Source of the DNA: Pararhodobacter marinus
GTDB taxonomy: Bacteria > Pseudomonadota > Alphaproteobacteria > Rhodobacterales > Rhodobacteraceae
Assembly (NCBI RefSeq): GCF_003122215.1
Contig: NZ_QEYD01000006.1
Coordinates: forward strand, 124,001-188,000
Direction of reading: 5' to 3'
DNA: 64,000 bases
Made by a program: the position numbers and the translations under genes. Of this stretch, positions 33,688 through 55,295 are shown piece by piece (the first letter of the stretch is position 1; the number at the start of each line of letters is the position of its first letter). Below the pieces are notes generated by a model. The model saw only the letters and a list, made by a program, of their open reading frames with translations. It searched no databases and was not told the origin of the DNA.

Positions 33688-34448
33688 GACATCTGCATCG
33701 CGGCCTGTGGTTCATGGCTTCGCTGGCGCTGCTGGTCGCGCTGATCTGGGGCTGGCAGGTGCTGGCCGATGCCCGCATCCTGCCGCGCGCCTTCTTTCCC
33801 GGCCCCGACCGGACGTGGCGCGCGCTGAGCCGTGGCTTCGCCTCGGGCACGCTGGTGGCGGATACGCTGACCACCTTGCGCCGTCTGGGGCTGGGCTGGG
33901 TGCTGGCCTCGCTGCTGGGGGTGGGGCTGGGTGCGCTGGTAGGCACGTCGAAATGGGCGCAGGACTGGGTCGCGCCGATCTTCGAGGTGCTGCGCCCGCT
34001 GCCTGCCTCGGCCATCGCGCCGGTTCTGCTGCTGTTTCTGGGCCTGACCGACAGCATGATCCTGACGCTGATCGCCTTCGGCGCGCTCTGGCCGATGCTG
34101 CTGACCACGGTGCACGGCTTTTCCAACATCCATCCGCGCCGCAAAGAGGTCGCGCGTTCGCTGGGCATGGGGCGCGGCGCTTTCATCGCCAAGATCGCCC
34201 TGCCGGGCGCGCTGCCCGACATCATGGGCGGTCTGCGGCTGGGCCTGACGGTGGCGCTGATCCTGGTCGTGGTGGGCGAGATGATCACCGTGCAGGGCGG
34301 GCTCGGGGCCCGGATCCTGCTGGCCGCGCGGGCCTTCAACGCCGCCGAGATCTTTGCCGGGGTCGCCCTTCTGGGCGTCATCGGTCTGGTGACCAATGCC
34401 CTGCTGGGGCTGGTCGAAACACGGGCATTGCGCTGGCAGCGACGCTGA
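33684..34448 (+). CDS. ABC transporter permease (SsuC/TauC type), second
   Basis: 254-residue permease clearly different in sequence from the preceding one. The EAA loop reads RKEVARSLGMGRGAFIAKIALPGALPDIMGGLR, quoted by its ends RKEVARSLGMG and LPGALPDIMGG. Two unlike permeases in one operon suggest a heterodimeric channel, whereas SsuC and TauC systems usually use one permease twice. Four-base overlap with the upstream permease; the binding-protein gene follows after 44 bases. Confidence 0.9.
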   Translation: MRHLHRGLWFMASLALLVALIWGWQVLADARILPRAFFPGPDRTWRALSRGFASGTLVADTLTTLRRLGLGWVLASLLGVGLGALVGTSKWAQDWVAPIFEVLRPLPASAIAPVLLLFLGLTDSMILTLIAFGALWPMLLTTVHGFSNIHPRRKEVARSLGMGRGAFIAKIALPGALPDIMGGLRLGLTVALILVVVGEMITVQGGLGARILLAARAFNAAEIFAGVALLGVIGLVTNALLGLVETRALRWQRR

Positions 34449-34492
34449 GCGCGCTGCCCGCAGAAATGCTAACCATGTCGGGAGGACCTGGA

Positions 34493-35507: not shown

Positions 35508-36473
35508 ATGAAATTTGCCACGCTTGCCAACAACACGCCGGATGGCCGGCTGCATCTTGTCAGCCGCGACCTGTCGCGCTGCGCTCCGGCAGAGGCCGCG
35601 CCGACGCTGCAGGCCCTGATCGAGAACTGGGACGCGCTGGCCCCCGCCCTGCAGACCCAGTACGAGGCGCTGAACGCGGGTGGCGGCGAGCCTTTCGATC
35701 CCGCCTCGGCGCTGGCGCCGCTGCCGCGCGCGTGGCAATGGCTGGACGGGTCGGCTTATGAAAGCCACGGCACGCTGATGGCCAAGGTTTTCGGCATCGA
35801 CAACCACGCCGACAAGGAACGGCCGCTGATGTATCAGGGCCTGTCGGATCATTTCCTCGCGCCTTGCGCCGATGTCCCGCTGCCGACCGAGGACGATGGC
35901 ATCGATTTCGAAGGCGAATTCGGCGTGATCTGCGACGCGGTGCCGATGGGCACCGATGCGGCCACGGCGCGCGGGCATATCCGGCTGCTGGTACAGATCA
36001 ACGACTGGTCGCTGCGCGCGGTCGCTCCCATCGAGATGCGCACGGGCTTCGGCTGGGTGCAGGCGAAACCGGCCTGCTCGATGGCCCCCGTGGCCGTCAC
36101 GCCCGATGAATTGGGCGATGCATGGCGCGACGCGCGTATCGACCTGCCGCTGGTGGTCGACTGGAACGGCGAGCGTTTCGGCGCGGCGGGCGGCTATGAC
36201 ATGGGCTTCGGTTTCGATCAGCTTGTCGCCCACGCCGCGCGGACCCGCAAGCTGGTGGCGGGGACGGTGATCGGCTCGGGCACCGTGTCGAACGAGAATT
36301 ACCGCGAGATCGGCTCGTCCTGCATCGCCGAGCGGCGCGGCATCGAGATGCTGGACGAAGGCGCCGCGCGCACCGGGTTCATGCGTTTCGGCGACCGCGT
36401 GCGGATGGAATGCCGCATGGCCGATGGCACGCCCCTGTTCGGTGCCATCGACCAAAAGGTCGTCAAAGGCTGA
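35508..36473 (+). CDS. Fumarylacetoacetate hydrolase family protein
   Basis: 321-residue FAH-fold enzyme that hydrolyses or hydrates a beta-diketone or oxo-acid type substrate using a divalent metal. Metal ligands can be assigned to Glu135 and Glu137 in GIDFEGEFGVI and Asp166 in VQINDWSLR; the C-terminal VIGSGTVSNENYREIGSSC is the substrate-loop signature. The N-terminal about 80 residues match the extra domain of fumarylacetoacetase-like members. GGGAGAG precedes the ATG. Its 3' end overlaps the convergent amidohydrolase by 11 bases. Confidence 0.87.
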   Translation: MKFATLANNTPDGRLHLVSRDLSRCAPAEAAPTLQALIENWDALAPALQTQYEALNAGGGEPFDPASALAPLPRAWQWLDGSAYESHGTLMAKVFGIDNHADKERPLMYQGLSDHFLAPCADVPLPTEDDGIDFEGEFGVICDAVPMGTDAATARGHIRLLVQINDWSLRAVAPIEMRTGFGWVQAKPACSMAPVAVTPDELGDAWRDARIDLPLVVDWNGERFGAAGGYDMGFGFDQLVAHAARTRKLVAGTVIGSGTVSNENYREIGSSCIAERRGIEMLDEGAARTGFMRFGDRVRMECRMADGTPLFGAIDQKVVKG

Positions 36474-37497
36474 ACAACGCCTCGGCATTGCCCCCCATGA
36501 TCGCCGCGCGGTCCTGGGCGGGCAGGGCCTCGGCCAGTGTGTCGGGGCGGCAATCGGCCATGTCGAACGGGTAATCCGTGCCGAACATCACCCGCGCCGC
36601 CCCCATCCGCGCGATCAGGGCGCGCAGCTGCTCGGGGTCAAAGACGACAGTATCGACCCAGATCCGCGAGAGATAATCCGAAGGCCGCTCGCGGCACTGA
36701 CGCGCCTCGGGGCGCACGCGCCATGTGTGATCGAGCCGCCCGATATAGGCGGGCAGATAGCCGCCGCCATGCGCGCCCACCAGCTTCAGGCCGGGGAAGC
36801 GATCCAGCACGCCCGAGATGATCAGCGACGACAGCGCGATGGTGGTTTCCAGCGGCTGACCGATCGTGTTCGACAGGTAGAACGACGACAGCCGGGGGCC
36901 CAGCGACGTGCCGAGCGGGTGGATGAAGACCGGCATCCCCGCTTCCTCGGCGGCGTGCCAGACCGGATCGAAAGCCGGGTCGGACAATTCGCGCGACCCG
37001 ACCGAGGCGGAAATCTCGACGCCCTTCAGCCCCACCGCCCTGGCCTGCCGGATCTGGTCGGCGGCCAGGTCGGGATGCTGCATCGCCACGATGCCCATGC
37101 CGGCCAGCCGGTCCGGCGCCCGCGCGACCAGCCCGGCGGCGGCGGTATTGGCGGCTTCGACGAGATCGGCGGCGAGCGTGGGATCGGCCCAGTAAGCATA
37201 GAGATGCGGAGAGGGCGAGACGACCTGCAGGTCGATGCCCATCAGGTCCAGATCGGCCAGCCGCTTGTCCAGCGACGCCATCCGCGCCCCGGCGGCTGGC
37301 AGCATCACCGCAAGGTTATGCGCCATCGAGGCGGCGCCCGTGCCTTTCGCCTGCGCCTCCATCTCGGCCTGACGATCCGGGCGCCCGGCCAGCAGCGCCT
37401 CGGCCTCGGGGGCGCCGCAATGGCCGTGCATGTCGATCACACGCGGCACGTCGATCCGGGGCAGGGCGGTGTCGGGCAGGGGGTTGAGCACGCTCAT
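36463..37497 (-). CDS. Amidohydrolase family protein (ACMSD-like)
   Basis: 344-residue TIM-barrel metal enzyme in the amidohydrolase_2 group, which includes aminocarboxymuconate semialdehyde decarboxylase and other decarboxylases or hydrolases. Metal ligands: His24 and His26 in VIDMHGHCG, His in PVFIHPLG, His in LVGAHGGGYLP and Asp in MFGTDYPFDM. The start ATG at 37497 overlaps the cyclase stop (ATGA), so the two are translated together. The pairing with a cyclase suggests consecutive steps on a ring or amide compound. Which reaction it performs cannot be told by eye. Confidence 0.85.
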   Translation of the reverse strand: MSVLNPLPDTALPRIDVPRVIDMHGHCGAPEAEALLAGRPDRQAEMEAQAKGTGAASMAHNLAVMLPAAGARMASLDKRLADLDLMGIDLQVVSPSPHLYAYWADPTLAADLVEAANTAAAGLVARAPDRLAGMGIVAMQHPDLAADQIRQARAVGLKGVEISASVGSRELSDPAFDPVWHAAEEAGMPVFIHPLGTSLGPRLSSFYLSNTIGQPLETTIALSSLIISGVLDRFPGLKLVGAHGGGYLPAYIGRLDHTWRVRPEARQCRERPSDYLSRIWVDTVVFDPEQLRALIARMGAARVMFGTDYPFDMADCRPDTLAEALPAQDRAAIMGGNAEALFSL

Positions 37498-38267
37498 TCG
37501 TCGAAGATCGCCACGGCGCGCACCCAGCCGGCCGAGCCTTTCTCGACCTTCACCGGGAAGGCGCAGACGGTATAGCCCGTGGCCGGCAGCGTTTCGAGAT
37601 TGGAAAGCTTTTCCATGTGGCAATAGGCGGCTTCGGCCCCGGCCTTGTGGCCTTCCCAGGCGAGCGCCTTGTTGCCGGTTTCGGCGATCTGACGCCTTTG
37701 ATGGATCAGCGGCGTGTCCCAGCTCCAGGCATCGGTGCCGCAGACCCGCATCCCGCGGTCGGTCAGCCACAGGGTCGCCTCGCGTCCGATGCCGCAGCCT
37801 TTGGACAGGTAATCGTCATGGCCATAGCGCAACCCGGCCGAGGTGTTCACCAGCACGATATCGCCCGGTTTCAGATCGTGGCCGATGCGCTTGAACTCGG
37901 CTTCGATCTCGGCGGCGGTGACGACATGGCCGTCGGGCAGGGCGCGGAAATCCAGCTTCACGCCCGGTCCCATGCACCACTCGAGCGGCACCTCGTCGAT
38001 GGTGATCGCCCGCTCGCCGTTATTCATCGTCGGGTGGTAATGCCACGGCGCGTCCAGATGCGTGCCGACATGCGTGGTGATGTCCAGCTCTTCCGAGGCC
38101 GGGCCCGCCCCGCCCAGCATTTCCGACGGCTCGATCCCCAGCATCGCCGCGAAGTCCTTGGCGCCATGCGCATGATCCAGATAGCGGATCTTCGGCAACA
38201 GGGGCGGCGGGTCCGACTTGATACCCGCTTTCAGCGTAACAGACAGATCGACAATCCGACGTGCCAT
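37494..38267 (-). CDS. Cyclase family metal-dependent hydrolase (kynurenine formamidase/isatin hydrolase-like)
   Basis: 257-residue member of the cyclase family, which includes KynB and isatin hydrolase. The metal motif HxGTHxDxPxH is intact as HVGTHLDAPWH (His66, His70, Asp72, His76), and VLVNTSAGLRYGHDDY and AVAIFDE match the family. Known members open an amide in a ring or hydrolyse a formamide. Transcribed from the 98-base gap it shares with the LysR gene, and overlapping the amidohydrolase by four bases. Substrate unknown. Confidence 0.87.
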   Translation of the reverse strand: MARRIVDLSVTLKAGIKSDPPPLLPKIRYLDHAHGAKDFAAMLGIEPSEMLGGAGPASEELDITTHVGTHLDAPWHYHPTMNNGERAITIDEVPLEWCMGPGVKLDFRALPDGHVVTAAEIEAEFKRIGHDLKPGDIVLVNTSAGLRYGHDDYLSKGCGIGREATLWLTDRGMRVCGTDAWSWDTPLIHQRRQIAETGNKALAWEGHKAGAEAAYCHMEKLSNLETLPATGYTVCAFPVKVEKGSAGWVRAVAIFDE

Positions 38268-38365: not shown

Positions 38366-39283
38366 GTGCGGCTGAACCGTCTGGACATGAACCTGATCAT
38401 CGCGCTGGAGGCGATCCTGCGGCTGCGCTCGGTCACGGCGGCCGCGGCCGAGCTGAACCTCACACAGCCTGCCGTCAGCCAGGCGCTGCGTCGCCTGCGC
38501 GAGCATTTCGACGACCCGATCGTCAGCCTTGCCGGACGAAGGATGCGCCCGACCGAGTTCGGCGAGCAATTGTTCGTCGCCGCGACCCAGCTTCTGAACG
38601 AGACACGGCATTTCTCGCAGATGCGGCCCGGTTTCGATCCGGCCTCGACCGAGCGGAAATTCTCGATCATCGCGTCGGATTTCGTCCTCAAGGTGCTGTT
38701 CGCGCCGCTTCTGCCGGTGCTCGCGCGCGAGGCACCGGGCGTGACCCTGCAGATGGTGCCCATCGACGCGCCCTCGGATGCGCGGTTCCAGCGCGGCGAG
38801 GTGGATTTCGCGGTCATTCCGGACCGCTTCCTGTATGACGGCCATCCCCATCAGCGGCTTTTTACCGACGATTTCGTCTGCGTCCTCAGCGAGGATCATC
38901 CCGACATCGCTGACAGCATGAGCGCCGAGACCTACCTGTCGCTGCGCCATGTCGTCACCGAGTTCGGCGGGACCTGGCGCGGCAGCCATTTCGAACAATG
39001 GGCGCTCGACAATGCGATCTCGCTGAAGGTGGCCTGCAGCGTTCCCAGCTTCGCGATGCTGGCCGATTGTCTGGTCGGCACGCCCTTCGTCGCCAGCATG
39101 CATCGCAGCCTGTGGAACAGCCTGCCCGCCGGGACCGGCCTGCGCGCGGTGCCCCATCCCTTGCCGGTGCCGAGGATCTCGGAAAACCTGCAATGGCATG
39201 AAATCCGGGAATTCGACAGCTCGGTCCGGTGGTTTCGCGACCTGGTGATCCGCACCGCGCGCGCCCGTTTCCCCGACAGCTGA
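38366..39283 (+). CDS. LysR family transcriptional regulator (NodD/NahR type)
   Basis: 305 residues. The N-terminal helix-turn-helix is RLNRLDMNLIIALEAIL to QAVSQALRRLREHFDDP, as in the NodD/NahR/LinR branch. The effector domain begins KFSIIASDFVLKVLFAPLLP. The start is GTG at 38366. Divergent from the cyclase-amidohydrolase pair, which it most likely controls in response to a pathway metabolite. Convergent with the TolC-like gene, six bases apart. Confidence 0.88.
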   Translation: MRLNRLDMNLIIALEAILRLRSVTAAAAELNLTQPAVSQALRRLREHFDDPIVSLAGRRMRPTEFGEQLFVAATQLLNETRHFSQMRPGFDPASTERKFSIIASDFVLKVLFAPLLPVLAREAPGVTLQMVPIDAPSDARFQRGEVDFAVIPDRFLYDGHPHQRLFTDDFVCVLSEDHPDIADSMSAETYLSLRHVVTEFGGTWRGSHFEQWALDNAISLKVACSVPSFAMLADCLVGTPFVASMHRSLWNSLPAGTGLRAVPHPLPVPRISENLQWHEIREFDSSVRWFRDLVIRTARARFPDS

Positions 39284-43270: not shown

Positions 43271-43485
43271 TGGTATCCCCCGATCCACAGGACATAGAGC
43301 CCGACGCCCGACAGTACCGCGACCGACAGGTGGAACACCGCCGGTGCGGGCAGGTGGCGGGCCAGGCCCGTCACGATCAGCACCTCGCGCAGGACCAGGG
43401 CCAGGATCATCCCGGCAAGGGCGGCAAACAGCCAGACCGGGAAAGAAGAGCCATAAATGGCGATGACCGGGGATCGCGGAGTCAT
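43267..43485 (-). CDS. DUF1656 small membrane protein (AaeX-like)
   Basis: 72-residue protein with two hydrophobic helices, VWLFAALAGMILALVL and FHLSVAVLSGVGLYVLWIG. This is the size and layout of DUF1656/AaeX proteins that precede HlyD-FUSC efflux genes. Start ATG at 43485 with GAGG five bases upstream on the minus strand. First gene of the efflux operon. Confidence 0.85.
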   Translation of the reverse strand: MTPRSPVIAIYGSSFPVWLFAALAGMILALVLREVLIVTGLARHLPAPAVFHLSVAVLSGVGLYVLWIGGYQ

Positions 43486-43824
43486 GGGGCCTCGGAGGAA
43501 TCTGTCGGCGGGCGCAGGCACATTTGTCTGCCCCTCGCCGGGCGGCTGCAAGGCGTGACGTTCCGGCACGTCCCGGGTGAACAGGGCCCGCGGCAGGGAC
43601 CACAGGCTTGCCGAGGCGGAATGCAGGCCGGGTATCACGGGCCAAAGCATTCCATCTGTAAATGCATGAAATTCAGACTATCAATTCGACTGATGCCTTG
43701 GCGCCCCTTAGCCTGCAGCTTGGGCAGGACCCGCCCTGGCGGGGTCTGCGTGGCGTCCGGGACCGGATCGTGACGGGCGAACAGGCGGGCGGCAGGACTA
43801 TCGGCTCGGAGGGAGGAGCCCCGA
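43486..43824. other. Divergent intergenic region between the efflux and TRAP operons
   Basis: 339 bases without a supported gene. The stretch 43650-43695 is markedly AT-richer and probably holds the divergent promoters; it contains the interrupted repeat TCAG-N13-CTGA (43673-43693), which could be a regulator site but is weak. GGGAGGAG at about 43810 is the ribosome site for the TRAP gene. Confidence 0.4.
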
Positions 43825-45753
43825 ATGCAGAGCAAAGAGAGTAACGCCGGCCCCGTGGCCCGGGCGATGGAGCAGGTCACCGGGCTGGTCGCGGTGATCG
43901 CGGTGGGCGGGATCCTTGCGGGGGCGGTGATCGTGGTGGGGGACGTGCTGGCACGATGGCTGTTCGGCACCGCCATCGTCGCGCTCAACGAGATCATGTC
44001 GGGCGTCTTTGCCGTCGCGGTCGCGGCAACCCTGCCGGCGGGCGCCGCGCGGCGGGTCAATCTGCGCATCGACCTGCTGGGCGCGCAGACCGGGCCGCGG
44101 ATGACCGCGTGGCTCACGCTGATCGGCTCGCTGATGCTGGCCGGGTTCTTCGCGCTGCTGGCCTGGCGGTTGTCGGTGCTGGGGCTGCGCTATCACGTTC
44201 AGGGGCGCGCCACCTCGATCTGGAACTGGCCGCTGGCGCCCACCTATTTCGCCATCGCGGGCTTCATGGCGCTGGCGGCTTTGGTGCAACTGGTCAATGC
44301 CGCCGAGGACCTGCGCCGGGCGTTGTCCACCCGCCGGGGCGCGGGCTCAAGCCCCGTCGTGATCCTTCTGGCCGTCGCGCTGGCGCTTCTGGCCGGGGGC
44401 GGCCTGATCTGGGGCTGGGCGGATTTTGCCGGTCTGGCGGGCTGGGCCGGGGCGCATCCGGCGGCGGCGGTGGGACTTGCTTTCGCGGTGTTGTGGATCG
44501 GCGTCCTTCTGCAACTGCCGCTCGCCACGGTGACGGCGGCGATCGGGCTGGCGGGGACGCTGCTGTATCTCGGCGGTTCGACGGCGGGGAACGTCTTTGC
44601 CGGGGACAGCGCGGATTTCCTGCGCGATCCGCAGGTCGCGACGCTGCCCCTGTTCCTGATCATGGGCGCCTTCGCGGTGGCCGCCGGTGTCTCGGACGAC
44701 CTGTTCCGCGTGGCGCAGGCGCTGCTGGGGCGGGTGCGCGGCGGGCTGGCCTATGCCACTGTCGCGGGCTGCGCGGGCTTCGGCGCGGTGAGCGGGAATT
44801 CGGTCGCGACCTCGGCCACGTTCGGGCGGCTCGCGCTGCCCGAGATGACGCGGCGCGGCTATGCGCCGGCGCTGTCCTCGGCCACCGTCGCGGCCGGCGG
44901 GACGCTGGGCGCGCTGGTGCCGCCGTCCGGGGTGATCATCCTGTTCGCACTTCTGACCGAGGAATCCATCGCGGCCCTGTTCGTCGCGGCGATGGTGCCC
45001 GCCCTGCTGGCGCTGCTTTTGTACTTCGCGACGATCTGGCTGACGATCCGGCTGAACCCGGATCTGGTCCCGCGGGCCGAGACCGGTGCGCGCAGCGACC
45101 TGATCCCGGCGCTGACCGGCGCCTTCCCGGTGATCGTGCTGTTCGCGGTGGTGATCGGCGGGCTCTATGGCGGGCTGTTCACCGCCACCGAAAGCGCCGC
45201 CGTGGGGGCGGTGGGGGCATTCCTGCTGGCGCTGGCGCGCGGGCGGCTGAACCGCAGCGCGCTGCTGCGGGTGTTTTCCGAGACCACGGCCTCGACCGCG
45301 ATGATCTACGCGCTGATCTTCGGCGCGCTGATCTTCTCCTTCTTCATCAATCTGGGCGGGACGCCGCAGATGGTCACCGACTGGATCGGCGGGATCGAGG
45401 CGCGGCCCATCGTCATCCTGTTCGTGCTGATCCTGTTCTACCTGCTCCTGGGCTCGGTGATGGACAGTTTCGCGGTGATGGTGATCACGGTCCCCGTGGT
45501 GACGCCGCTGGTGCTGGATCTGGGCTATGACATCCTGTTCTGGGGCGTGCTGATGCTGGTCGTGGTGGAAACCGGCATGATCACGCCACCCTTCGGCATG
45601 AACCTGTTCGTGCTGAAGGCGCTGCAGAAGGACGTGAATCTGGGCACGGTGATGCGCGGTGTCGTGCCGTTCATCCTGGCCGATCTGGTGAAGATCGTGC
45701 TCTTGGTCGCGGTCCCGGCGTTGTCGCTGTGGTTGCCGTCGACCATGAACTAG
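43825..45753 (+). CDS. TRAP transporter fused permease (DctQ-DctM)
   Basis: 642-residue inner-membrane subunit of a TRAP importer in which the small DctQ-like subunit (about residues 15-165, four helices, with VGDVLARWLFGTAIVALNEI) is fused to the large DctM-like subunit (about 185-642). DctM hallmarks include LPLFLIMGAFAVAAGVSDDL, GCAGFGAVSGNSVATSATFG, AAGGTLGALVPPSGVII, and GMITPPFGMNLFVLK near the end. The matching binding-protein gene lies convergently just downstream. Start ATG after GGGAGGAG. The transporter imports organic acids or similar anions using an ion gradient. Confidence 0.93.
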   Translation: MQSKESNAGPVARAMEQVTGLVAVIAVGGILAGAVIVVGDVLARWLFGTAIVALNEIMSGVFAVAVAATLPAGAARRVNLRIDLLGAQTGPRMTAWLTLIGSLMLAGFFALLAWRLSVLGLRYHVQGRATSIWNWPLAPTYFAIAGFMALAALVQLVNAAEDLRRALSTRRGAGSSPVVILLAVALALLAGGGLIWGWADFAGLAGWAGAHPAAAVGLAFAVLWIGVLLQLPLATVTAAIGLAGTLLYLGGSTAGNVFAGDSADFLRDPQVATLPLFLIMGAFAVAAGVSDDLFRVAQALLGRVRGGLAYATVAGCAGFGAVSGNSVATSATFGRLALPEMTRRGYAPALSSATVAAGGTLGALVPPSGVIILFALLTEESIAALFVAAMVPALLALLLYFATIWLTIRLNPDLVPRAETGARSDLIPALTGAFPVIVLFAVVIGGLYGGLFTATESAAVGAVGAFLLALARGRLNRSALLRVFSETTASTAMIYALIFGALIFSFFINLGGTPQMVTDWIGGIEARPIVILFVLILFYLLLGSVMDSFAVMVITVPVVTPLVLDLGYDILFWGVLMLVVVETGMITPPFGMNLFVLKALQKDVNLGTVMRGVVPFILADLVKIVLLVAVPALSLWLPSTMN

Positions 45754-45830: not shown

Positions 45831-46850
45831 TCACTCGGCGATCGCGGCCGAGGCGTCGTCCAGCGACTGGCGGTAGATCTCGAGCGCCTCGGCGCCGCCG
45901 GGCGTGCGCTCGATATAGGCGGCTTCGATCGGGCCGCCCACGCGCTCGACCAGCTCGGCCACTTGCGCGTCGGTCATCGTGTGGAAGCGCCGCTCGCCGT
46001 CGCTTTGCACGAAGGCCAGCGCATCCGCTTCCCAGGCGTCGATGGCGGCGCCCGTCTGGCGCGAGGTTTCGCAGGTCGAATGCCGTTCCAGGATCTCCTG
46101 CGCCGCGTCGGGCAGGGCCTCGAACCGGTCACGCATCATGAAGACCAGCCCCAGCCCGCCGCCCAGAGGGGCGATCAGGTGGTCGGTCGTCACCTCGTTC
46201 AGCCGGAAGCCCGGAAAAGCGGTAAAGTTCATCACCAGGCCTTCTGCCGTGCCGCGCTGCAGCGCCTGATACATCTCGGGCACGTTGATCGACAGGGGCG
46301 TGCCGCCATAGGCCTGGATCAGTCCCGAGACCACCGGGCTGCCGGTCATCACCTTCATGCCCGCCATATCCTCCATCGAGGTGGCGGGATGATTCTGGAA
46401 ATGCAGGCTGGCCTGCGGGAACTGCACGAAGAGCAGCGGCACGATATCCGCCGTCTCGTCGCCGAAACCGCCCGCTTCGTAGAACAGGCAGGCCGCCAAT
46501 GCGCCCTGTTCGGCGTTTTGCACCATGAAGGGCAGGGTGGTGACCAGCGAGCGGGGGAAGCGACCGGCATCGAAGGCGGTGATGCCGAACACCATCTGCA
46601 CGACATCGTCCTGGATCCGGTCGAAGAAATTCGTGTGGTTCACGATCATCGGCCCGTTGCGAAGCTGGATTTCCAGCACCGAGGGATCCTCGGCGTTGAT
46701 CGCCTCGACCCAGGGAGTCAGGATGCGGGTGACAAGCGGGTGCTGTTCGGGATTCGCGGTGCCGAAGCCCAGCGTCTCCTGCGCGACGGCGGGTCCGGTT
46801 GCGAGAAGCGCCGCGCTGGACAAAAGCGCGGCGAGAGTGCGGCGGATCAT
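45831..46850 (-). CDS. TRAP transporter substrate-binding protein (DctP family)
   Basis: 339-residue periplasmic binding protein. Signal peptide MIRRTLAALLSSAALLATG then AVAQ, cleaved after Ala. The DctP fold shows MVFGITAFDAGRFPRS, LHFQNHPATSMEDMAGMKV and the TRAP-family selectivity helix GTPLSINVPEMYQALQRGTAEGLVMNF, given here by its ends GTPLSINVPEMYQ and GTAEGLVMNF. GGGAGG precedes the ATG at 46850. It is convergent with the DctQM gene and in the same direction as the LysR gene 113 bases upstream, so transport genes are split over two strands. Confidence 0.9.
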   Translation of the reverse strand: MIRRTLAALLSSAALLATGPAVAQETLGFGTANPEQHPLVTRILTPWVEAINAEDPSVLEIQLRNGPMIVNHTNFFDRIQDDVVQMVFGITAFDAGRFPRSLVTTLPFMVQNAEQGALAACLFYEAGGFGDETADIVPLLFVQFPQASLHFQNHPATSMEDMAGMKVMTGSPVVSGLIQAYGGTPLSINVPEMYQALQRGTAEGLVMNFTAFPGFRLNEVTTDHLIAPLGGGLGLVFMMRDRFEALPDAAQEILERHSTCETSRQTGAAIDAWEADALAFVQSDGERRFHTMTDAQVAELVERVGGPIEAAYIERTPGGAEALEIYRQSLDDASAAIAE

Positions 46851-46963
46851 GGGTTCCTCCCCTATATCTTTGCATCCCCCGAAAGACAGGGGCCGGGAAA
46901 GACCGTAGCGGCGCCTCATGTTTTTGAAAATTTGATTGGTTCAATGGAAGGTATTCATGGGAT

Positions 46964-47869
46964 TCATGGATCTGGCGCGACCGAGGCGATCAGCCGCTCG
47001 CGCAGCCAGACCAGCGCCGGATCGGTGTCGCGCATGCTGTGCCACTGGATGACCTGTTCCAGCGGCGCCATGGACAGCGGCGGTTCCGCCATGGCGAGCC
47101 CCGGATCCTGTTCCACCATCCGCCGCGCCAGCCGCCGCTGCACCAGCGCGATGCGATCCGACCCGCGCACCAGATCGCCGAGCGAGGAAAACGAGAAGGT
47201 CGTCACCGCCACGTTGACCGCCACGCCCGCATCGCGCAACAGATGCGCGGCATAGCTCTGCCCGCCGACCGGCGGCTCCATCGCGACATGTTCGAGCGCG
47301 GCAAAGGTCGCAAGGTCAAGATGCCCGGCCGCCGGATTGGTCGCGTCCAGGATGCAGACCATCGGGTCCCTCAGCAGCGTCTGCGACGGGTGGTCGGGGG
47401 ACGAATAGACGCGCGGTGCGATCAGAAGATCGGTATCGCCACGTTCAAGCTGCAAGCCCGGATAGGTGCGCTGCGGCTTGATCGTCAGCCGCATCGACGG
47501 GGCCTCGCGGGCGACCTGTTGCACGAAGGGCGGCACGACGGTCGCCAGGCTGTAATCCGACACCATCAGCGCAACGTTGCGGGTGCTGGTGGCGGGGTCG
47601 AAAACCGGGGGGGTGGCAACGGCGGCCTCGATCCGCACCAGAATGTCGCGCACGGGGCCCGCCAGCGCCTCGGCGCGGGGGGTCAGTTCCATGCGCCGGC
47701 CCACCTGCACCAGCAGCGGGTCCTCGAAATATAGCCGCAGCCGGTTCAGCGCGTTCGACATCGCCGACTGGGTGATCGACAGCTCGTCGGCGGCGCGGCT
47801 GACGCTTTGCAGGCGGATCAGCTTGTCCAGTGCCGCCAGCAGGTTGAGGTCGAGATTTTGAAAACGCAT
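46964..47869 (-). CDS. LysR family transcriptional regulator
   Basis: 301 residues from the ATG at 47869 (MRFQNLDLNLLAALDKLI). An upstream in-frame ATG at 47905 has no ribosome site and would overlap the operator. Helix-turn-helix: VSRAADELSITQSAMSNAL. Effector domain starts about 90 with RNVALMVSDYSLATVVPPF, NodD/NahR-like. Divergent from the seven-gene catabolic operon and upstream of dctP, hence the likely regulator of both uptake and breakdown. Confidence 0.9.
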   Translation of the reverse strand: MRFQNLDLNLLAALDKLIRLQSVSRAADELSITQSAMSNALNRLRLYFEDPLLVQVGRRMELTPRAEALAGPVRDILVRIEAAVATPPVFDPATSTRNVALMVSDYSLATVVPPFVQQVAREAPSMRLTIKPQRTYPGLQLERGDTDLLIAPRVYSSPDHPSQTLLRDPMVCILDATNPAAGHLDLATFAALEHVAMEPPVGGQSYAAHLLRDAGVAVNVAVTTFSFSSLGDLVRGSDRIALVQRRLARRMVEQDPGLAMAEPPLSMAPLEQVIQWHSMRDTDPALVWLRERLIASVAPDP

Positions 47870-47904
47870 GACCGGAATCCCAGTAATCGGATGAATACCA
47901 TACA

Positions 47905-47926
47905 TTGATACTTACAATTTCATCAA
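47905..47926. promoter_or_regulatory. Candidate LysR-type operator, TTGAT-N12-ATCAA
   Basis: Perfect five-base inverted arms TTGAT and ATCAA around a 12-base AT-rich spacer, in the 109-base gap between the LysR gene and the catabolic operon. Position and geometry fit a LysR recognition site. Confidence 0.5.
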
Positions 47927-47978
47927 TGCTCATTCCCTCGCTATGGTCCCCCGGAACGAACGGCGAAGGAGGATGCGC

Positions 47979-49136
47979 GTGTTCCGCTATTTCCCCACGA
48001 ATTATGTCTGGGACCTGTCGATCAACCTGTCGATCGAGATGGGCGGCCGGCTGGGCGAGATCGAGGCGATGTGCGCGCCGCTGAAAGAGGCCGCGCTCAC
48101 GCCCGAGGACGGGGGCACGCTGGCATTCCGCAAGGTCTGGTCCGAAGGCGCCGATAACCTGATCGACCTCGCCCAGGACGATCTGGCCCGCGGACGCAGC
48201 CTGTCGGCCTCGAACAAGCTGATGCGCGCGGCGAATTACCTGATCACCGCCGAACGCCTGCAGGCGCATGGCTCGGAAGGGCGGATGGCGCTGTACCGCA
48301 AGCATCTGGCGACCTTCTACCAGGCGCTGGGTCTTGGCGGGAGCGGTGGCTACCGCGTGACCATCCCCTATGAAGGCAAGCATCTGTCGGGCATCTTCCT
48401 GCCCGCCGAGAATGTCACCGGCCCGCAGCCGGTGCTGGTGCAGGTCAACGGCTTCGACAGCACAAAGGAAATGCGCTTCATGGCGCAGCTACCGGGGATG
48501 CTGGCCAAGCGCGGGATCGCCTCGCTGGTGCTGGACCAGCCGGGCACGGGCGAGGCTCTGCGCCTGCAGGAACTGACCGCGCGCCATGACAGCGAACACT
48601 GGGCGACGCCAGTCTATGAATGGCTGGCCGCGCGTCCCGATGTCGATGCCGCGCGCATCGGCATGGAGGGCGTCAGCCTTGGCGGCTATTACGCGCCGCG
48701 CGCCGTGGCCTTCGAGCCGCGCTATGCCTGCGGCGTGAGCTGGGGCGCCAACCACGACTGGCGCGACGTCCAGAAGCGGCGGCTCGAGCGCGAGGGCGAG
48801 TTCCCGGTGCCGCATTACTGGTCCCATGCCGCCTGGGTGTTCGGCGCCAAGGATACCGACGACTTCATGCAGAAGGCCGAAGGCATGCATCTGGACGGCG
48901 TTCTGGACCGCATCCGCGTGCCGTATCTGGTCACGCACGGCAAGCATGACAGCCAGATCCCGCTGAAATGGGCGTATCGGACCTATGAGCAACTGGTGAA
49001 CAGCCCGCGCCGCGAACTGGTCATCTTCGACGAACGCACCGGCGGCGTGCAGCATTCCAGCATCGACAATTCGGGCCCCGCGCTCGACTGCATCTGCGAT
49101 TTCGTGGCCGAGTCGCTCGGCGGCCGGATCGCCTGA
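47979..49136 (+). CDS. Alpha/beta hydrolase, C-C bond hydrolase type (2,6-dihydroxypseudooxynicotine hydrolase-like)
   Basis: 385-residue serine hydrolase with a helical N-terminal cap domain (1-about 120). Nucleophile Ser233 in MEGVSLGGYYAP, the acid in THGKHDSQIP and His in GGVQHSS. The layout matches the family that contains 2,6-dihydroxypseudooxynicotine hydrolase and related C-C hydrolases. Start chosen as GTG at 47979 (MFRYFPTNYVWDL): AAGGAGG at 47966-47972 is six bases before it but directly abuts the in-frame ATG at 47973. First gene of the operon; 13 bases before the dioxygenase gene. Confidence 0.85.
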   Translation: MFRYFPTNYVWDLSINLSIEMGGRLGEIEAMCAPLKEAALTPEDGGTLAFRKVWSEGADNLIDLAQDDLARGRSLSASNKLMRAANYLITAERLQAHGSEGRMALYRKHLATFYQALGLGGSGGYRVTIPYEGKHLSGIFLPAENVTGPQPVLVQVNGFDSTKEMRFMAQLPGMLAKRGIASLVLDQPGTGEALRLQELTARHDSEHWATPVYEWLAARPDVDAARIGMEGVSLGGYYAPRAVAFEPRYACGVSWGANHDWRDVQKRRLEREGEFPVPHYWSHAAWVFGAKDTDDFMQKAEGMHLDGVLDRIRVPYLVTHGKHDSQIPLKWAYRTYEQLVNSPRRELVIFDERTGGVQHSSIDNSGPALDCICDFVAESLGGRIA

Positions 49137-49149
49137 GGAGGAACAGGAC

Positions 49150-50094
49150 ATGCAGATCATCGGACCCGATCTTCTGGTCTTCGGCGTGGACGACGTGCCC
49201 GCCTGCCACGAATTCCTCAGCGCCTACGGGCTGGATTGCGCGGATTACACGCCCGAGAAGGGCGGCACCTATCTGGCGCTCGACGGAACCGGGCTGGTCA
49301 TCCGCCCGCGCAACGACCCGTCTCTGCCGCTCGCGCTGAAAACCGGCACCACGCTGCGCCTGCAGGTGCTGGGCGTGGTGGATGCGGCCGCGCTCGATGC
49401 CGTCGAGGCCGAGCTGTCGCGCGACCGTCAGGTTCTGCGTCTGGCCGATGGCAGCCTGCGCACGCAAGACGATCAGGGATTCGAGCTGGCCTTCCGCGTC
49501 ACCACGCGCAAGCCGCTCGATATGCCGGGCGAGAAGGTGAACGCGCCCTATGCGCCCGCGCGTCCGGCCAATGCGCTGGGCGTCACGCAGGACATGCCCG
49601 CAAAGCCCCGGACCCTGTCGCATGTCGTGCTGTTCGTGCCCGATATCGACGGCGCCGTGGGCTTCTACCGCGACCGGCTGGGCTTTCGCATCACCGATAC
49701 GCTGACCGGCGCGGGGCCGTTCCTGCGCCCGCAGGCCAATCCCGACCACCACACGCATTTCTTCATCCGCACGCCCCCCTACATGCAGGGGATCGAGCAC
49801 CTGGCCTTTCATCTGGGCGGGCCGACCGAGCTGATGCTGGCGGGCAGCCGGATGATGGAACAGGGCTACGAGAGCTTCTGGGGCCCGGGCCGTCACAAGT
49901 TCGGCTCGAACTGGTTCTGGTATTTCAAGAGCCCGCTGGCCTGCAATGTCGAGTTCGACGCCGACATGGACACCCATGACGACGACTGGGCCCCGCGCGA
50001 GGCGCCGATGGGTCCCGAGGCCAGTCAGGCCTTCCTGATGCAGTGGCGTGCGAAATGGGCGCCCGGCGGGGGGCCGGGCGGGCCTAAGGGCTGA
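49150..50094 (+). CDS. Two-domain VOC protein, type I extradiol dioxygenase
   Basis: 314 residues with two vicinal-oxygen-chelate domains. The C-terminal domain carries the iron site: His158 (LSHVVLFVPD), His217 (IEHLAFHLGG) and Glu258 (CNVEFDADMD), and the extradiol signature GPGRHKFGSNWFWYFKSP. It should cleave a catechol-like or dihydroxylated ring next to the hydroxyls with O2. AGGAGGAAC precedes the ATG. In a pathway the neighbouring FAD monooxygenases would provide the hydroxylated ring and the upstream C-C hydrolase would split the product. Confidence 0.87.
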   Translation: MQIIGPDLLVFGVDDVPACHEFLSAYGLDCADYTPEKGGTYLALDGTGLVIRPRNDPSLPLALKTGTTLRLQVLGVVDAAALDAVEAELSRDRQVLRLADGSLRTQDDQGFELAFRVTTRKPLDMPGEKVNAPYAPARPANALGVTQDMPAKPRTLSHVVLFVPDIDGAVGFYRDRLGFRITDTLTGAGPFLRPQANPDHHTHFFIRTPPYMQGIEHLAFHLGGPTELMLAGSRMMEQGYESFWGPGRHKFGSNWFWYFKSPLACNVEFDADMDTHDDDWAPREAPMGPEASQAFLMQWRAKWAPGGGPGGPKG

Positions 50095-50124
50095 ACGGAC
50101 GAAACCTTGGGGGAGGAGGCAGTC

Positions 50125-51363
50125 ATGAGCGGGGAATGGCGGACAGGCCGGCGCGTTGCCATCGTCGGGGCCGGGCCGGGCGGCCTGTCGGCGGCGATCG
50201 CCTTCTTGCAGGCGGGCTACGACGTGCGGATTTTCGAGCGCGCCGCGCAACCCAAGCCCTTGGGCGGCGCAGTGCTGCTGTCGGTGCCGGTGATGGCGAT
50301 CCTCCGGTCCTATGGCATCGACATCGAGAACAATTTCGGCTCGAAAACGATTACCCATTTCGCCAATAGCCGGGGCAAGCTCCGCGCCACGCTGCCGTTC
50401 AACCGCTCGGTCGAGCAGGCCTTCGGCATCGAGGGCTGGCATTACGGCATCCTGCGGATGAATACCTATGACAAGATGATGCGCGTTCTGGCCGACAGGG
50501 CGCCCGCCGCGCTGGTCGCCGGGCACGCGCTGGATCGTTACGAGGACGCGCCCGGGGGCATCCGGCTGCATTTCACCAATGGCGCCGAGGTCGAGGCCGA
50601 TCTGCTGGTCGGCGCGGACGGGATCCGTTCGGCCGTGTCGCGGCAGGCTTTCGGGGATCCGGGGCTGTTCCATATCGGCCTGCGCGTCTGGCTGGCATGG
50701 TGCGAGGACCTGCCGGGGATCGACCGCGACCACGGATACATCCACCATTCGCGCAGCCTGCAGGCCAGCTATTTCCCGATGAAGCACGATGGCCGACCCG
50801 GCTTCGAGTGGTGGCTGGTCGAGCAATCGGATCCGGCGCAGCCCGCACCCGCCGATATCCGCGCGCACCTGATGAACCGGCTTTCGGCCTTTCCGCCCGT
50901 CCTGCGCCGACTGGCAGAGAATACGGATTTCGCCACGCAGGTCTTCCCGTGGGAGATCTACAACCGGCCCTCTCTGTCGTCCTGGTGCACCGGGCGCGTG
51001 GCCTGTGTGGGCGACGCGGTGCATCCTGTCTCGCCCTATGCGGCCTATGGCATGGGCATGGCGATCGAGGACGGCTATTTTCTGGCCCGCGCGATGAAAG
51101 GGCAGGCGCTGACGCCCGAAAACATCGCCGAAGGTTGCCGAGCCTACGAGGCCGAGCGGGTCGCCTATTGCAACCATCATGTGGAATTCGCGCGCAAGAT
51201 GGGCAACCAGTTCCACCGTGCGCCCTCGCCCGTGGCCCTGCTGCGCGATCTGGTCTTCGATCATACGCCCCTGCTGCAGACGCTGATCGCCAAGGATTAC
51301 CTCGCCGATGCCGAGCGCATGTCGCTCAGCCTGAAGGAATTGCATGTCGCCCGGGACGGATGA
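50125..51363 (+). CDS. FAD-dependent aromatic monooxygenase (salicylate hydroxylase-like), first
   Basis: 412-residue class A flavoprotein hydroxylase. FAD-binding GAGPGG in RVAIVGAGPGGLSAAIAFL (about 15-20), the DG motif in LLVGADGIRSAVS and the GD motif in VACVGDAVHPVSPYAAYGMG are all intact. It hydroxylates an aromatic ring with NAD(P)H and O2. Start is the ATG at 50125 behind GGAGGAGG; an earlier GTG/ATG-type frame start adds only seven residues. Its 3' end overlaps the Rieske gene by 20 bases. Confidence 0.9.
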   Translation: MSGEWRTGRRVAIVGAGPGGLSAAIAFLQAGYDVRIFERAAQPKPLGGAVLLSVPVMAILRSYGIDIENNFGSKTITHFANSRGKLRATLPFNRSVEQAFGIEGWHYGILRMNTYDKMMRVLADRAPAALVAGHALDRYEDAPGGIRLHFTNGAEVEADLLVGADGIRSAVSRQAFGDPGLFHIGLRVWLAWCEDLPGIDRDHGYIHHSRSLQASYFPMKHDGRPGFEWWLVEQSDPAQPAPADIRAHLMNRLSAFPPVLRRLAENTDFATQVFPWEIYNRPSLSSWCTGRVACVGDAVHPVSPYAAYGMGMAIEDGYFLARAMKGQALTPENIAEGCRAYEAERVAYCNHHVEFARKMGNQFHRAPSPVALLRDLVFDHTPLLQTLIAKDYLADAERMSLSLKELHVARDG

Positions 51364-51715
51364 TCCGCCGCTCTGCCGGCTCGACGACCTTGCGCAGGGC
51401 GAGGCGCGCGGCTTCGACGTGCCGGGGCTTCGCGCCAAGGTCATCGTCGTGCGGCGGGGCGACACCGTGCGCGGCTGGCGCGACCTGTGTCCGCATTACG
51501 CGGGCGGCACGCCGATGGCGTGGAAGCGCGACGCCTATCTGAACGGCGCGCGCACGCATCTGGCCTGTCACGCGCATGGCGCGTGGTTCGATATCGATAC
51601 CGGGGTCTGCGTGCAGGGTCCCTGTCTGGGCAAGCGGCTGACCCGCGTGCCGCTGAAAATTGACGACAAGGGCGGCATCCATCCGGAGCGACCGCCAAGG
51701 GGGAGAGAGACATGA
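51344..51715 (+). CDS. Small Rieske 2Fe-2S protein
   Basis: 123-residue ferredoxin-like Rieske protein. The cluster ligands are complete: Cys49-x-His51 and Cys75-x2-His78, in DLCPHYAGG and LACHAHGAWFD. It has the size of the ferredoxin component of ring-hydroxylating dioxygenases or of a stand-alone Rieske electron carrier, but no oxygenase alpha subunit is present. Start ATG at 51344 with AAGGA six bases upstream, inside the previous gene; overlaps the next FAD gene by four bases. The tight coupling suggests it transfers electrons to or from one of the flavoproteins. Confidence 0.87.
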   Translation: MSPGTDDPPLCRLDDLAQGEARGFDVPGLRAKVIVVRRGDTVRGWRDLCPHYAGGTPMAWKRDAYLNGARTHLACHAHGAWFDIDTGVCVQGPCLGKRLTRVPLKIDDKGGIHPERPPRGRET

Positions 51716-52833
51716 CGGAGAAACGGCGCATTCTGGTCGTGGGGGGCGGCTTTTCGGGCATGAGCGCGGCGATCCTGCTGGCCGAGGCAGGGAACGCGGT
51801 CGACCTGGTCGAGATCGATGCTGACTGGCGCAGCTATGGGGCGGGGATCAGCCTGAATGGCGGGATCTTCCGCGTGTTCCACCGGCTGGGCATCCTTGAG
51901 GCGTTCAAGGCGGTGGGGGCGATGACTGACGGGGTCGAGATGCGCAATCCCGCCGATGCGGTCGTCGCCCGCCTGCCCACGCCCTCGCTGCAAGAGGGGG
52001 CGACGGGCAATGGCGGCGTGATGCGCCCGGTTCTGGCGAAACTTCTGTCCGACCGGGTGCGCGAGACCGCGACGAATATTCGCCTGGGCGTCAGCGCCAC
52101 GGGCTATGACAACCGCGCGGATGGTGTGAGCGTCACCTTCAGCGACGGGACGACGGGCGAGTATGACCTCGTGATCGGCGCCGACGGGCTGTATTCGACC
52201 ACCCGCGCCGCGATCTTCCCCGATGCGCCGAAGCCCCGCTATATCGGCCAGGCGGTCTGGCGCGCCGTGCTGCCGCTGCCCGAAGGGGTGAACACCGTCA
52301 CGATGTGGATCGGCTCGAAGCTGAAATACGGGGTGAACGGGGTGTCGGACGGCAAGGCCTATCTCTTCGTGACCGAGGATCGCCCGACGAACGCGCGCAT
52401 CCCCCAAGACGCCCAGCTGGGGATGTTACGGGAATTGCTCGAACGGTTCCCGGCCAAGACCATTCAGGACATCGCCGCGGGCCTCGATGACGACAGTCAG
52501 GTGATCTATCGCCCGCTCGAACAGATGCTGATGCCGCGCCCGTGGCACAAGGGTCGCGTGGTGCTGATCGGCGACGCGGTCCATGCCACGACCCCGCATA
52601 TGGCGGCGGGGGCGATGATCGGCATGGAGGATGCGGTGGTGCTGGCCGACGAACTTGCCGCGCACGATATCGAAACCGCCCTGAGCGCGTTCCAGGAGCG
52701 CCGCTGGGAACGCTGCCGCATGGTGGTCGAGAATTCGGGCCGGCTGGCCGAGATCGAACAGGGCCACGGCACGCACGAGGAACACACCCGCCTGATGGGG
52801 CAGACGCTGGGCGCGCTGGCCGCGCCGATCTGA
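51712..52833 (+). CDS. FAD-dependent monooxygenase, second
   Basis: 373-residue class A flavoprotein hydroxylase. FAD motif GGGFSG in ILVVGGGFSGMSAAILL, DG motif LVIGADGLYSTTR, GD motif VVLIGDAVHATTPHMAAGAM. It shares the fold but is clearly a different enzyme from the one at 50125, so two hydroxylations may occur in sequence. Starts ATGA over the Rieske stop, after GGGGGAGAG. Cupin gene follows four bases after its stop. Confidence 0.9.
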   Translation: MTEKRRILVVGGGFSGMSAAILLAEAGNAVDLVEIDADWRSYGAGISLNGGIFRVFHRLGILEAFKAVGAMTDGVEMRNPADAVVARLPTPSLQEGATGNGGVMRPVLAKLLSDRVRETATNIRLGVSATGYDNRADGVSVTFSDGTTGEYDLVIGADGLYSTTRAAIFPDAPKPRYIGQAVWRAVLPLPEGVNTVTMWIGSKLKYGVNGVSDGKAYLFVTEDRPTNARIPQDAQLGMLRELLERFPAKTIQDIAAGLDDDSQVIYRPLEQMLMPRPWHKGRVVLIGDAVHATTPHMAAGAMIGMEDAVVLADELAAHDIETALSAFQERRWERCRMVVENSGRLAEIEQGHGTHEEHTRLMGQTLGALAAPI

Positions 52834-52837
52834 GGGG

Positions 52838-53410
52838 ATGATGGATTTCCCCCCGATCACCCGCGTCGTCACCGGCCACGATGCCGACGGCCGGGCGGTG
52901 CTGGCCGAAGTCGGCCCGCTGCCGCATGTGACGCGGATCGACGCCATCCCCGGCACCGTGTTCCACGAGATCTGGGCGACCGAGGGCGCGCCCGCGCCGG
53001 TGGGCAACACGGCGGACCCGACCCTGGGTCCGCTGATGCTGCCGCCGCCGCGACACGGGACCCGCATCCGCATCGTCGATATCCCGCCCGATACCGAGGA
53101 TTTCCTGCGGCAGGGCGCAAGCCGGATGCAGGACGCTTTCACCCAGATCGGCGACGCCGCTGCTTCGACCGTGGCCGAGGACAGCCCGCATCCGCTGATG
53201 CATCGCACCGAAAGCGTCGATTACGGCGTGGTGCTGGCGGGGGAATGCACGCTGGTGCTGGATCGTGGCGAAGTGCTGCTGAAACCCGGCCATGTCGTCG
53301 TCCAGCGCGGCACCAACCATGCCTGGGCCAACCGCTCGGGCGCGATGTGCCGGATGCTTTTCGTGCTGGTCGATGGTGCCTACCTGCCGGGCATCGGCCC
53401 CGGGGCCTGA
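52838..53410 (+). CDS. Cupin domain-containing protein
   Basis: 190 residues. The C-terminal single cupin is visible as HPLMHRTESVDYGVVLAGE and LVLDRGEVLLKPGHVVVQRGTNHAW (given by ends LVLDRGEVLL and QRGTNHAW), with two histidines, a Glu and a later His as potential metal ligands. The first about 90 residues are not clearly cupin. In a catabolic operon it could be a ring-cleaving dioxygenase, an isomerase or a decarboxylase; the sequence does not decide. Two tandem ATGs begin the gene, four bases after the FAD gene stop. Confidence 0.82.
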   Translation: MMDFPPITRVVTGHDADGRAVLAEVGPLPHVTRIDAIPGTVFHEIWATEGAPAPVGNTADPTLGPLMLPPPRHGTRIRIVDIPPDTEDFLRQGASRMQDAFTQIGDAAASTVAEDSPHPLMHRTESVDYGVVLAGECTLVLDRGEVLLKPGHVVVQRGTNHAWANRSGAMCRMLFVLVDGAYLPGIGPGA

Positions 53411-53462
53411 CCGGACGGCGCCCGGTCCCCGGCCAATTTCTTCCAGACCAAAGGACTTTCCC

Positions 53463-54374
53463 ATGACCCATGCCTCGATGCCGCCGCCTTCCAGCTTCAC
53501 CACCCTCGGCACCGGGGGCGGGCCGATGCAGAACCCGCTCGCCTCGCAACCCGCGCATCTGGTGATGAACGGCCCGCGCCCGGTGCTGGTCGATTGCGGC
53601 GAGGGAGCGATGGGTCAGCTCAGGAAGGCGGGCGTGGATTTCCGCGATGTCGGCGAGGTTTTCCTCACGCATCACCATTTCGACCATATCGGCAGCCTGT
53701 TCGCCTGTCTGGGGCTGAACATGATGACCATGCGCCGGGCGCCGCTGACGATCTGGGGGCCGCCCGGGACGAAGGCGATCCTCGACAGCCTGATCGCGGC
53801 CTGCGACGTGCCGCAGGCGATCGGGTTCGGCGTCAAGGGCCAGACGCTGCCGCATCCGCGCGACTTCCTGCGGGTCGAAGAGATCACCGGCGGGGCGCGG
53901 ATCGACCTTGGCGAGATGGTCGTCACCGCCTGCGAGAACACCCATTACCGCGCCGAAAGCGAGGCAGGCCAGCCCGGCCCCGTCTCGCTGTCGCTGCGTT
54001 TCGACCTGCCGGGGCGCAGCCTGTTCTTCACCGGCGATACCGGCCCCTGCCGCGCGGTCGAGGATCTGGCGCAGGGCGTCGATCTTCTGGTCAGCGAAAT
54101 GATGGATCTGGACATGACCATGGAGCGCGTCCGCGCCAGCAACCCGCATATGCCCGACGAGGCCATCGCCCGGATCCGCACGCATCTCTCCGCCCATCAC
54201 CTCAGCCCCGAACAGGTGGGCGATCTGGCCAGCCGGGCCGGCGCCGCGCATGTCGTCGCCACCCATTTCGCGCCGGGCTGCGCGACGCCCGACACCGCCG
54301 ATGCCTACGCCGCCCGCATCGCCGCACGGTTTGCCGGCCGCGTCTCGATCGGCCGCGATCTGCAGAGCTACTGA
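53463..54374 (+). CDS. Metallo-beta-lactamase fold hydrolase
   Basis: 303-residue cytosolic hydrolase of the RNase Z/arylsulfatase-like branch. Metal motif THHHFDHIG (His70, His72, Asp74, His75), further ligands in FFTGDTGPC and VVATHFAPGC. No signal peptide. As the last gene of the catabolic operon, it may hydrolyse a lactone, ester or thioester intermediate, by analogy to MBL enzymes in other catabolic gene sets. AAAGGA precedes the ATG, 52 bases after the cupin stop. Confidence 0.85.
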   Translation: MTHASMPPPSSFTTLGTGGGPMQNPLASQPAHLVMNGPRPVLVDCGEGAMGQLRKAGVDFRDVGEVFLTHHHFDHIGSLFACLGLNMMTMRRAPLTIWGPPGTKAILDSLIAACDVPQAIGFGVKGQTLPHPRDFLRVEEITGGARIDLGEMVVTACENTHYRAESEAGQPGPVSLSLRFDLPGRSLFFTGDTGPCRAVEDLAQGVDLLVSEMMDLDMTMERVRASNPHMPDEAIARIRTHLSAHHLSPEQVGDLASRAGAAHVVATHFAPGCATPDTADAYAARIAARFAGRVSIGRDLQSY

Positions 54375-54464: not shown

Positions 54465-55295
54465 ATGACGCGCAGAACCATCTATGACAGCGAGGACATC
54501 CGGATCACGCAGGATGTGCTGGAGGGCGCATCGAGCGTGATCGTCTTCTTCTCAAGCTTCAAGGAAGCGGATTGGCAAGCCGTCGCCGGACGCGAGGACA
54601 CGATCCGGTTCCGCGGGCATTCGGGCGTCTTCGTGACCGCGAAAAGCAACCATTGGTGGCAGGTGCCCGATCTCGCCCAGATGTGCGCCTGTATCAGGGC
54701 CGCGACACGGGGATATTCGCAGCGGATCGCTTACGGGTCCAGCAAGGGCGCTTTCGGGGCGCTGTTGCTGTCCTCGGATATCGACGCCACGCGCGTGATC
54801 GCCGTGGCGCCGCAGACCGCGATATCGGATCCGGCGCTTCCGATCCTTCCGGTCTGGCGCGAGGCGATCGCGCAAAGGCCGATCTTGCGTGACAATGTCG
54901 CCGAAAGCCTGAAGCTCGTCCCCGAGCTGATGTACGATCCGCACAAGGACACCGACAAACCCCATATCGACGCGCTGAAAGCGCGTGTCGAGGTCACCGA
55001 ACTCCGCTTTCCGTTCGGTGGGCACAAGCTGCTCAGGACGTTCAAGGAAGCCGGCATCCTTGGCAATGTCATGGGACGGGTGTTCGATGCGCCGGCATCC
55101 GAGGCAGAGCTGCACGCGATCTTCGACCCGGCGAAACGGCGCTCGGCCTCTTATCTTCACAACCATGGCTCGCGGCTTGCCGAAGCCGGGGATTTCGAGC
55201 GCGCGCGGTCCGAAGCGCGCGCGCTCGAAACGGTCGATCCGGTACGGGCCGACAATCTGAAGGCGATCATCGACGACCTTCAGGCCGCGGACTGA
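54465..55295 (+). CDS. Unassigned protein with alpha/beta-hydrolase-like GSSKG motif
   Basis: 276 residues, no signal peptide. SQRIAYGSSKGAFGALLLSS has the G-x-S-x-G pattern of a nucleophile elbow (GSSKG) between a predicted strand and helix, and FFSSFKEADWQAV near the N-terminus could be the oxyanion loop. The last 50 residues, with YLHNHGSRLAEAGDFERARS, resemble a tetratricopeptide-type helical hairpin. I do not recognise a characterised family. It lies alone between the catabolic operon and catB; the ATG at 54465 follows GGGGCAGGGAC. A role cannot be stated. Confidence 0.65.
   Translation: MTRRTIYDSEDIRITQDVLEGASSVIVFFSSFKEADWQAVAGREDTIRFRGHSGVFVTAKSNHWWQVPDLAQMCACIRAATRGYSQRIAYGSSKGAFGALLLSSDIDATRVIAVAPQTAISDPALPILPVWREAIAQRPILRDNVAESLKLVPELMYDPHKDTDKPHIDALKARVEVTELRFPFGGHKLLRTFKEAGILGNVMGRVFDAPASEAELHAIFDPAKRRSASYLHNHGSRLAEAGDFERARSEARALETVDPVRADNLKAIIDDLQAAD

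Follow-up and report, generated by a model that had tools for sequence, protein, structure and literature searches.

A conserved fde-type operon with an accessory FAD hydroxylase and a candidate arylsulfatase gene in a member of the Rhodobacterales

Seven genes of a Pararhodobacter-like member of the Rhodobacterales form an operon that very probably serves the oxidative degradation of flavonoids via (meta) cleavage of the A ring, in the manner of the fde pathway. The operon is real, well conserved and known in kind, and is a variant of the fde type with an accessory hydroxylase. The accounts of flavonoid A-ring cleavage known to us concern soil and plant-root bacteria. In Rhodobacterales, this core is joined by TRAP transport genes and a gene for a sulfatase-like enzyme, and a sulfatase-transporter module, plausible here, would be new if shown.

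Operon layout and core enzymes

All seven open reading frames are tightly packed on the + strand in the 47870..54374 region of the window, the 64,000-nucleotide stretch that was analysed (Table 1). Each has a Pfam or profile match to the family named in the first-pass annotation, and the divergent LysR gene with TRAP genes beyond it is also as described there. Comparison with relatives most likely puts the start of LysR, judged from a conserved block, at 47869 rather than 47905, that of the hydrolase at a GTG (47979, not 47943) and that of the first FAD hydroxylase (FMO1) at the ATG at 50125, preceded by a GGGGGAGGAG stretch. The metallo-beta-lactamase gene most likely starts near 53460, since the listed start of its reading frame falls within the cupin gene. 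The inverted repeat upstream of the operon has perfect 7-bp arms, which are identical in three related loci (L050, L051 and L053), with its block partly conserved in two more (L055 and L056), and is likely the LysR site. In Herbaspirillum, FdeR is a LysR activator reported to act at the fdeR-fdeA intergenic region (PMC10799723). The LysR protein of the window would activate the operon via the repeat between the divergent genes.

Table 1. Features of the operon and associated genes, in positions of the window
Feature	Position	Strand	Remarks
TRAP membrane protein, fused DctQ-DctM	43825..45753	+	PF04290 + PF06808; kept in L050, L051, L053
TRAP solute-binding protein DctP	45831..46919	-	PF03480; adjoins LysR also in L050, L051, L053
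LysR-type regulator, FdeR-like in position	46964..47869	-	PF00126/PF03466; start from block conserved in relatives
Operator-like inverted repeat CATTGAT-N12-ATCAATG	47903..47928	.	LysR/operon intergenic
Alpha/beta C-C hydrolase, 2,6-dihydroxypseudooxynicotine hydrolase type	47979..49136	+	
FdeC-type type I extradiol dioxygenase	49150..50094	+	
FMO1, accessory group A FAD hydroxylase	50125..51363	+	
Small Rieske [2Fe-2S] protein, FdeD-like	51344..51715	+	
FMO2, group A FAD hydroxylase in an FdeE-like position	51712..52833	+	
Cupin, akin to those in other fde-type operons	52838..53410	+	PF07883
Metallo-beta-lactamase-fold hydrolase, candidate S4-type arylsulfatase	53460..54374	+	
Fumarylacetoacetate-hydrolase family enzyme (FAH)	35508..36473	+	76% to L051 gene; relative inside operon in L051, L053
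PF04199 cyclase-family hydrolase	37494..38267	-	65% to cyclase beside L051 operon
Second LysR regulator, divergent from cyclase	38366..39283	+	

The best solved match of the hydrolase is 2jbw (68.6 bits), a 2,6-dihydroxy-pseudo-oxynicotine (DHPON) hydrolase, which is a C-C hydrolase (reference in PMC11069340); this backs the earlier assignment to the C-C type. The extradiol dioxygenase has an intact His-His-Glu set, as first described: H158, H217 and E268 do not vary among the sequences aligned (25 of 25). Its Pfam match is confined to the C-terminal domain, and TIGR03213 covers residues 9-282 at 39.9 bits, far under the cut-off of 366. The dioxygenase family is set apart in the class sample (190 genomes; best non-own match 59%, next 38%), whereas its edge is less sharp outside that sample: among 398 genomes of a Pseudomonas-like family (family inferred), 46 had a dioxygenase match, with a tail down to 46%. 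The small Rieske protein matches PF00355 with 33.6 bits (cut-off 20.3) and has visible CPH and CHAH pairs; it was not among the 9 matches of the genome-wide PF00355 scan. Both FAD hydroxylases match PF01494, and the second, FMO2, scores 472.5 bits against NF005313 (cut-off 372).

The first-pass annotation recognised no named pathway in this combination. That view does not hold for the core of hydrolase, dioxygenase, Rieske protein, FAD hydroxylase and cupin, which is of the fde type known from Herbaspirillum and Variovorax. It does hold for the exact set of seven genes, which matches no published pathway: two of its enzymes, the additional hydroxylase and the metallo-beta-lactamase enzyme, depart from the core, and none of the papers returned by literature searches for this gene set was recognised as describing the module. 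With the fde cluster of Herbaspirillum seropedicae SmR1 (naringenin), in which FdeC is Hsero_1005 and FdeE is Hsero_1007 (PMC10755750), the window shares the order dioxygenase-Rieske-FAD hydroxylase and the divergent LysR gene; unlike that cluster, it adds an FAD hydroxylase, the metallo-beta-lactamase enzyme and TRAP transport, and has its FAH and cyclase genes apart from the operon. The Rieske protein, called lone at first pass, is accounted for by FdeD, a Rieske protein reported to carry electrons for the FdeED hydroxylase (PMC8552027). With the isoflavone cluster ifc of Variovorax sp. V35, for which a dioxygenase resembling FdeC, a hydrolase of the DHPON type and two cupins are reported (PMC11069340), the window shares these three kinds of enzyme and an FAD hydroxylase, 8-hydroxylating in ifc; the ifc enzyme, IfcA, is 36.3% identical to FdeE (PMC11069340). 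A Pseudomonas genome is also reported to contain a cluster that resembles the naringenin genes (PMC8515041). A Herbaspirillum RNA-seq paper (PMC4440368) contains no fde gene name. The kinship of the window to FdeC, FdeD, FdeE and the Ifc proteins is seen in gene order, family and published descriptions rather than in direct alignment.

To our knowledge, just two clusters of the fde/ifc type have published substrates, both of them flavonoids. With so few, the same enzymology could act on a non-flavonoid substrate such as a chromone, a coumarin or the like, in which a pyranone carries a fused resorcinol- or phloroglucinol-type ring, and some host genera are marine or soda-lake by name. We regard such a substrate as improbable, because both published substrates are flavonoids and FdeE is described as acting broadly on flavonoids (PMC11303751). 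The fde assignment, which we prefer, is made at the level of flavonoids, the sequence leaving their class unfixed.

Related loci and the proposed pathway

A one-genome-per-species scan with the dioxygenase profile gave at least 499 relatives among at least 597 pattern matches. The best 80 were kept and joined by 8 annotated plasmid loci, so that the 88 loci are the closest relatives and not a random sample. Genes were counted by tblastn with the proteins of the window and accessory proteins of two plasmids (E 1e-8), any passing identity being counted; several of the stretches are short, and counts refer to the stretch analysed.

In these 88 loci (the best 80 of at least 499 relatives and 8 from plasmids), the number with a relative is 88 for the dioxygenase, 84 for FMO2, 80 for the hydrolase, 78 for the Rieske protein, 75 for LysR, 69 for the cyclase, 68 for FAH, 49 for an MFS transporter, 48 for the cupin (36 of them at 66-76% identity) and 42 for an epimerase; a close epimerase was not found within the window. 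The FMO2 relatives fall at 50-91% identity in 69 loci and at 34-42% in 15, and FMO2 of the window belongs with the majority, not with the set of 15; it is 35% identical to the hydroxylase of a Bradyrhizobium cluster. In 64 of the 87 loci with a near-full dioxygenase, the genes follow one another as dioxygenase-(FMO1)-Rieske-FMO2 on a single strand, and conservation of the gene set over the 88 loci exceeds chance. An Acidovorax locus (L113) has a divergent LysR gene followed by a ten-gene run of transporter, hydrolase, dioxygenase, Rieske protein, FMO2, MFS, cyclase, cupin, FAH and epimerase, in which genes 3, 4 and 5 match FdeC, FdeD and FdeE in kind; we infer that the transporter is FdeA-like. 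No Herbaspirillum was present among the named loci in the best 80 of at least 499 dioxygenase relatives. An fde/ifc-like set surrounded by transposase genes lies on a conjugative plasmid of Bradyrhizobium elkanii from a soybean nodule (L046:13934-29386), and Bradyrhizobium accounts for 7 of the 30 plasmid matches listed, with a dioxygenase identity of about 56%.

The order of reactions proposed at first pass, hydroxylation followed by O2-dependent ring opening and C-C cleavage, finds support both in the enzyme families and in the pathway that the operon resembles. FMO2 and its Rieske partner would hydroxylate C8 of the A ring to give a 7,8-catechol, as reported for FdeE and IfcA, and the extradiol dioxygenase would open the catechol ring, as reported for FdeC and IfcB. 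In Variovorax, mutants and recombinant enzymes assign the 8-hydroxylation of daidzein to IfcA, ring opening to IfcB and a step on the pyranone to the cupin IfcD (PMC11069340). The alpha/beta hydrolase, the FAA-hydrolase or both may then release a four-carbon A-ring fragment and leave an aryl-substituted lactone or pyranone; in the naringenin route, the A ring is lost, putatively as oxaloacetate, to yield 5-aryl-3-oxo-valero-delta-lactone, whose ring opens (PMC10755750). The step of the hydrolase is uncertain, since disruption of the Variovorax hydrolase gene is reported to leave daidzein degradation unaffected (PMC11069340). By analogy with IfcD, the cupin might process the lactone or pyranone ring together with the cyclase, whose role is a guess. 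The B-ring product could enter 4-hydroxybenzoate and protocatechuate routes. Elsewhere in the genome, two 4-hydroxybenzoate 3-monooxygenase and three intradiol-dioxygenase matches over cut-off, which could serve the B ring, were found; each monooxygenase frame has one TGA, taken as the end codon.

The FAH and cyclase genes lie 10-12 kb upstream of the operon on other transcripts. Of all genes in the genome, these two best match genes inside or beside the L051 operon, and the pathway therefore seems to be split over about 19 kb of the window; a second cyclase relative (57%) is found on another contig. Other genes occur in this part of the window. An AsnC regulator and an ABC transporter with an NMT1-like binding protein (31513-35437, +) precede FAH, and an Amidohydro_2 enzyme (36463-37770, -) reads with the cyclase; these are possibly further pathway or uptake genes. 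An outer-membrane efflux protein, a FUSC-type inner-membrane protein and an HlyD adaptor stand in a row at 39290-43645 (-), a set of the aromatic-acid efflux type that also adjoins the operon in L050.

The accessory hydroxylase

FMO1 is 26% identical to FMO2 and has 6-hydroxynicotinate 3-monooxygenase as its nearest solved structure. The latter would accord with an undescribed ring-cleavage operon, as proposed at first pass, that acted on a pyridine acid or hydroxybenzoate. We consider such a pathway very unlikely, since the core matches fde/ifc and since FMO1 is a rare insertion that had no match in 80 of the 88 dioxygenase loci (the best 80 of at least 499 relatives and 8 plasmid loci) or in the stretch around the sister cluster L050, and so does not define the pathway. 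Where a relative is present, it lies between the dioxygenase and Rieske genes in four loci (Roseibium, Rhizobium straminoryzae, Peteryoungia and Sulfitobacter), as in the window, and elsewhere within the stretch in the four others. At E 1e-90, FMO1 was found in 1 of 240 genomes of the class, this being its own genome, and in 2 of 290 genomes of the family, both with the dioxygenase; in the second of these, from the same genus, FMO1 and the operon are on different contigs. FMO1 is scattered over the tree of 87 dioxygenases and looks like an optional hydroxylase that is gained and lost with fde clusters. On a conjugative plasmid of Burkholderia anthina (L045:8609-10342), an FMO1 homologue is flanked by short dioxygenase-like and short Rieske-like pieces, as if a second dioxygenase-FMO1-Rieske set had left a remnant.

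The metallo-beta-lactamase-fold enzyme and TRAP transport

Among solved structures, the last enzyme of the operon is closest to an arylsulfatase (222 bits, compared with 64 for RNase Z). This is 8gyg from P. atlantica, named an arylsulfatase by its depositors, with which it has 38% identity and the stretches EMMD and PHMP in common. The HxHxDH zinc-binding pattern of the RNase Z-like metallo-beta-lactamase fold is present in the window enzyme, and motif and fold are shared with S4 arylsulfatases (AtsA of Pseudoalteromonas carrageenovora; 8gyg), from which it differs in being encoded in a flavonoid-degradation operon. Membership of S4 is defined in PMC5066984 by at least 30% identity to AtsA (P28607), and the likeness given here was measured to 8gyg, not AtsA. 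The N-terminus, judged by eye, suggests that the candidate sulfatase is cytoplasmic.

Within the bacterial family, the enzyme is present in 7 of 9 dioxygenase-positive and 1 of 71 dioxygenase-negative genomes, often near TRAP genes; the Fisher value of 9e-8 overstates independence, as the genomes are related. In the single dioxygenase-negative genome (L180:9391-10287), distant TRAP relatives (24-39%) lie in the same 20 kb, and enzyme and transporter may be a unit independent of the flavonoid genes. Over the 88 loci (the best 80 of at least 499 relatives and 8 plasmid loci), a relative of the enzyme occurs in 19; eleven of these are just 35-43% identical to that of the window and may differ from it in function, and a TRAP match is absent from the stretch in 8 of the 19.

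The metallo-beta-lactamase fold is able to hydrolyse lactones, and the gene is within the operon. The enzyme could accordingly be a lactonase that opens an aryl-oxo-delta-lactone after removal of the A ring, and thus a core enzyme with no sulfate involved; the published pathway does run through a delta-lactone with ring opening (PMC10755750). We find a lactonase doubtful, because the enzyme is in just 19 of the 88 fde-type loci in the stretches analysed although every such pathway should need lactone opening, because an arylsulfatase comes nearest to it among solved structures, and because one genome has it near TRAP-like genes but lacks the dioxygenase.

As a tentative alternative to a lactonase, we suggest a sulfatase in an fde pathway that was rebuilt in Rhodobacterales for sulfated flavonoids of seagrasses or salt-tolerant plants, in which TRAP import and S4-type desulfation would be followed by fde degradation of the aglycone, with FMO1 widening the range. 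Sulfated flavonoids are reported to be prevalent in seagrasses (PMC11810914). The S4 family is described as having one characterised member, with an artificial substrate, and an in vivo function that is hard to predict (PMC5066984). None of the papers found in literature searches linking arylsulfatase, flavonoid sulfate and flavonoid catabolism was recognised as describing the module. If true, the suggestion would give S4 sulfatases a substrate found in nature and their first physiological role, and would point to a route returning seagrass phenolics to the carbon cycle. Located 3´ of the operon, at 54465-55295 (+), is a gene for a 276-residue protein with no Pfam match over cut-off, which the sister locus L050 also has, at 68% conservation.
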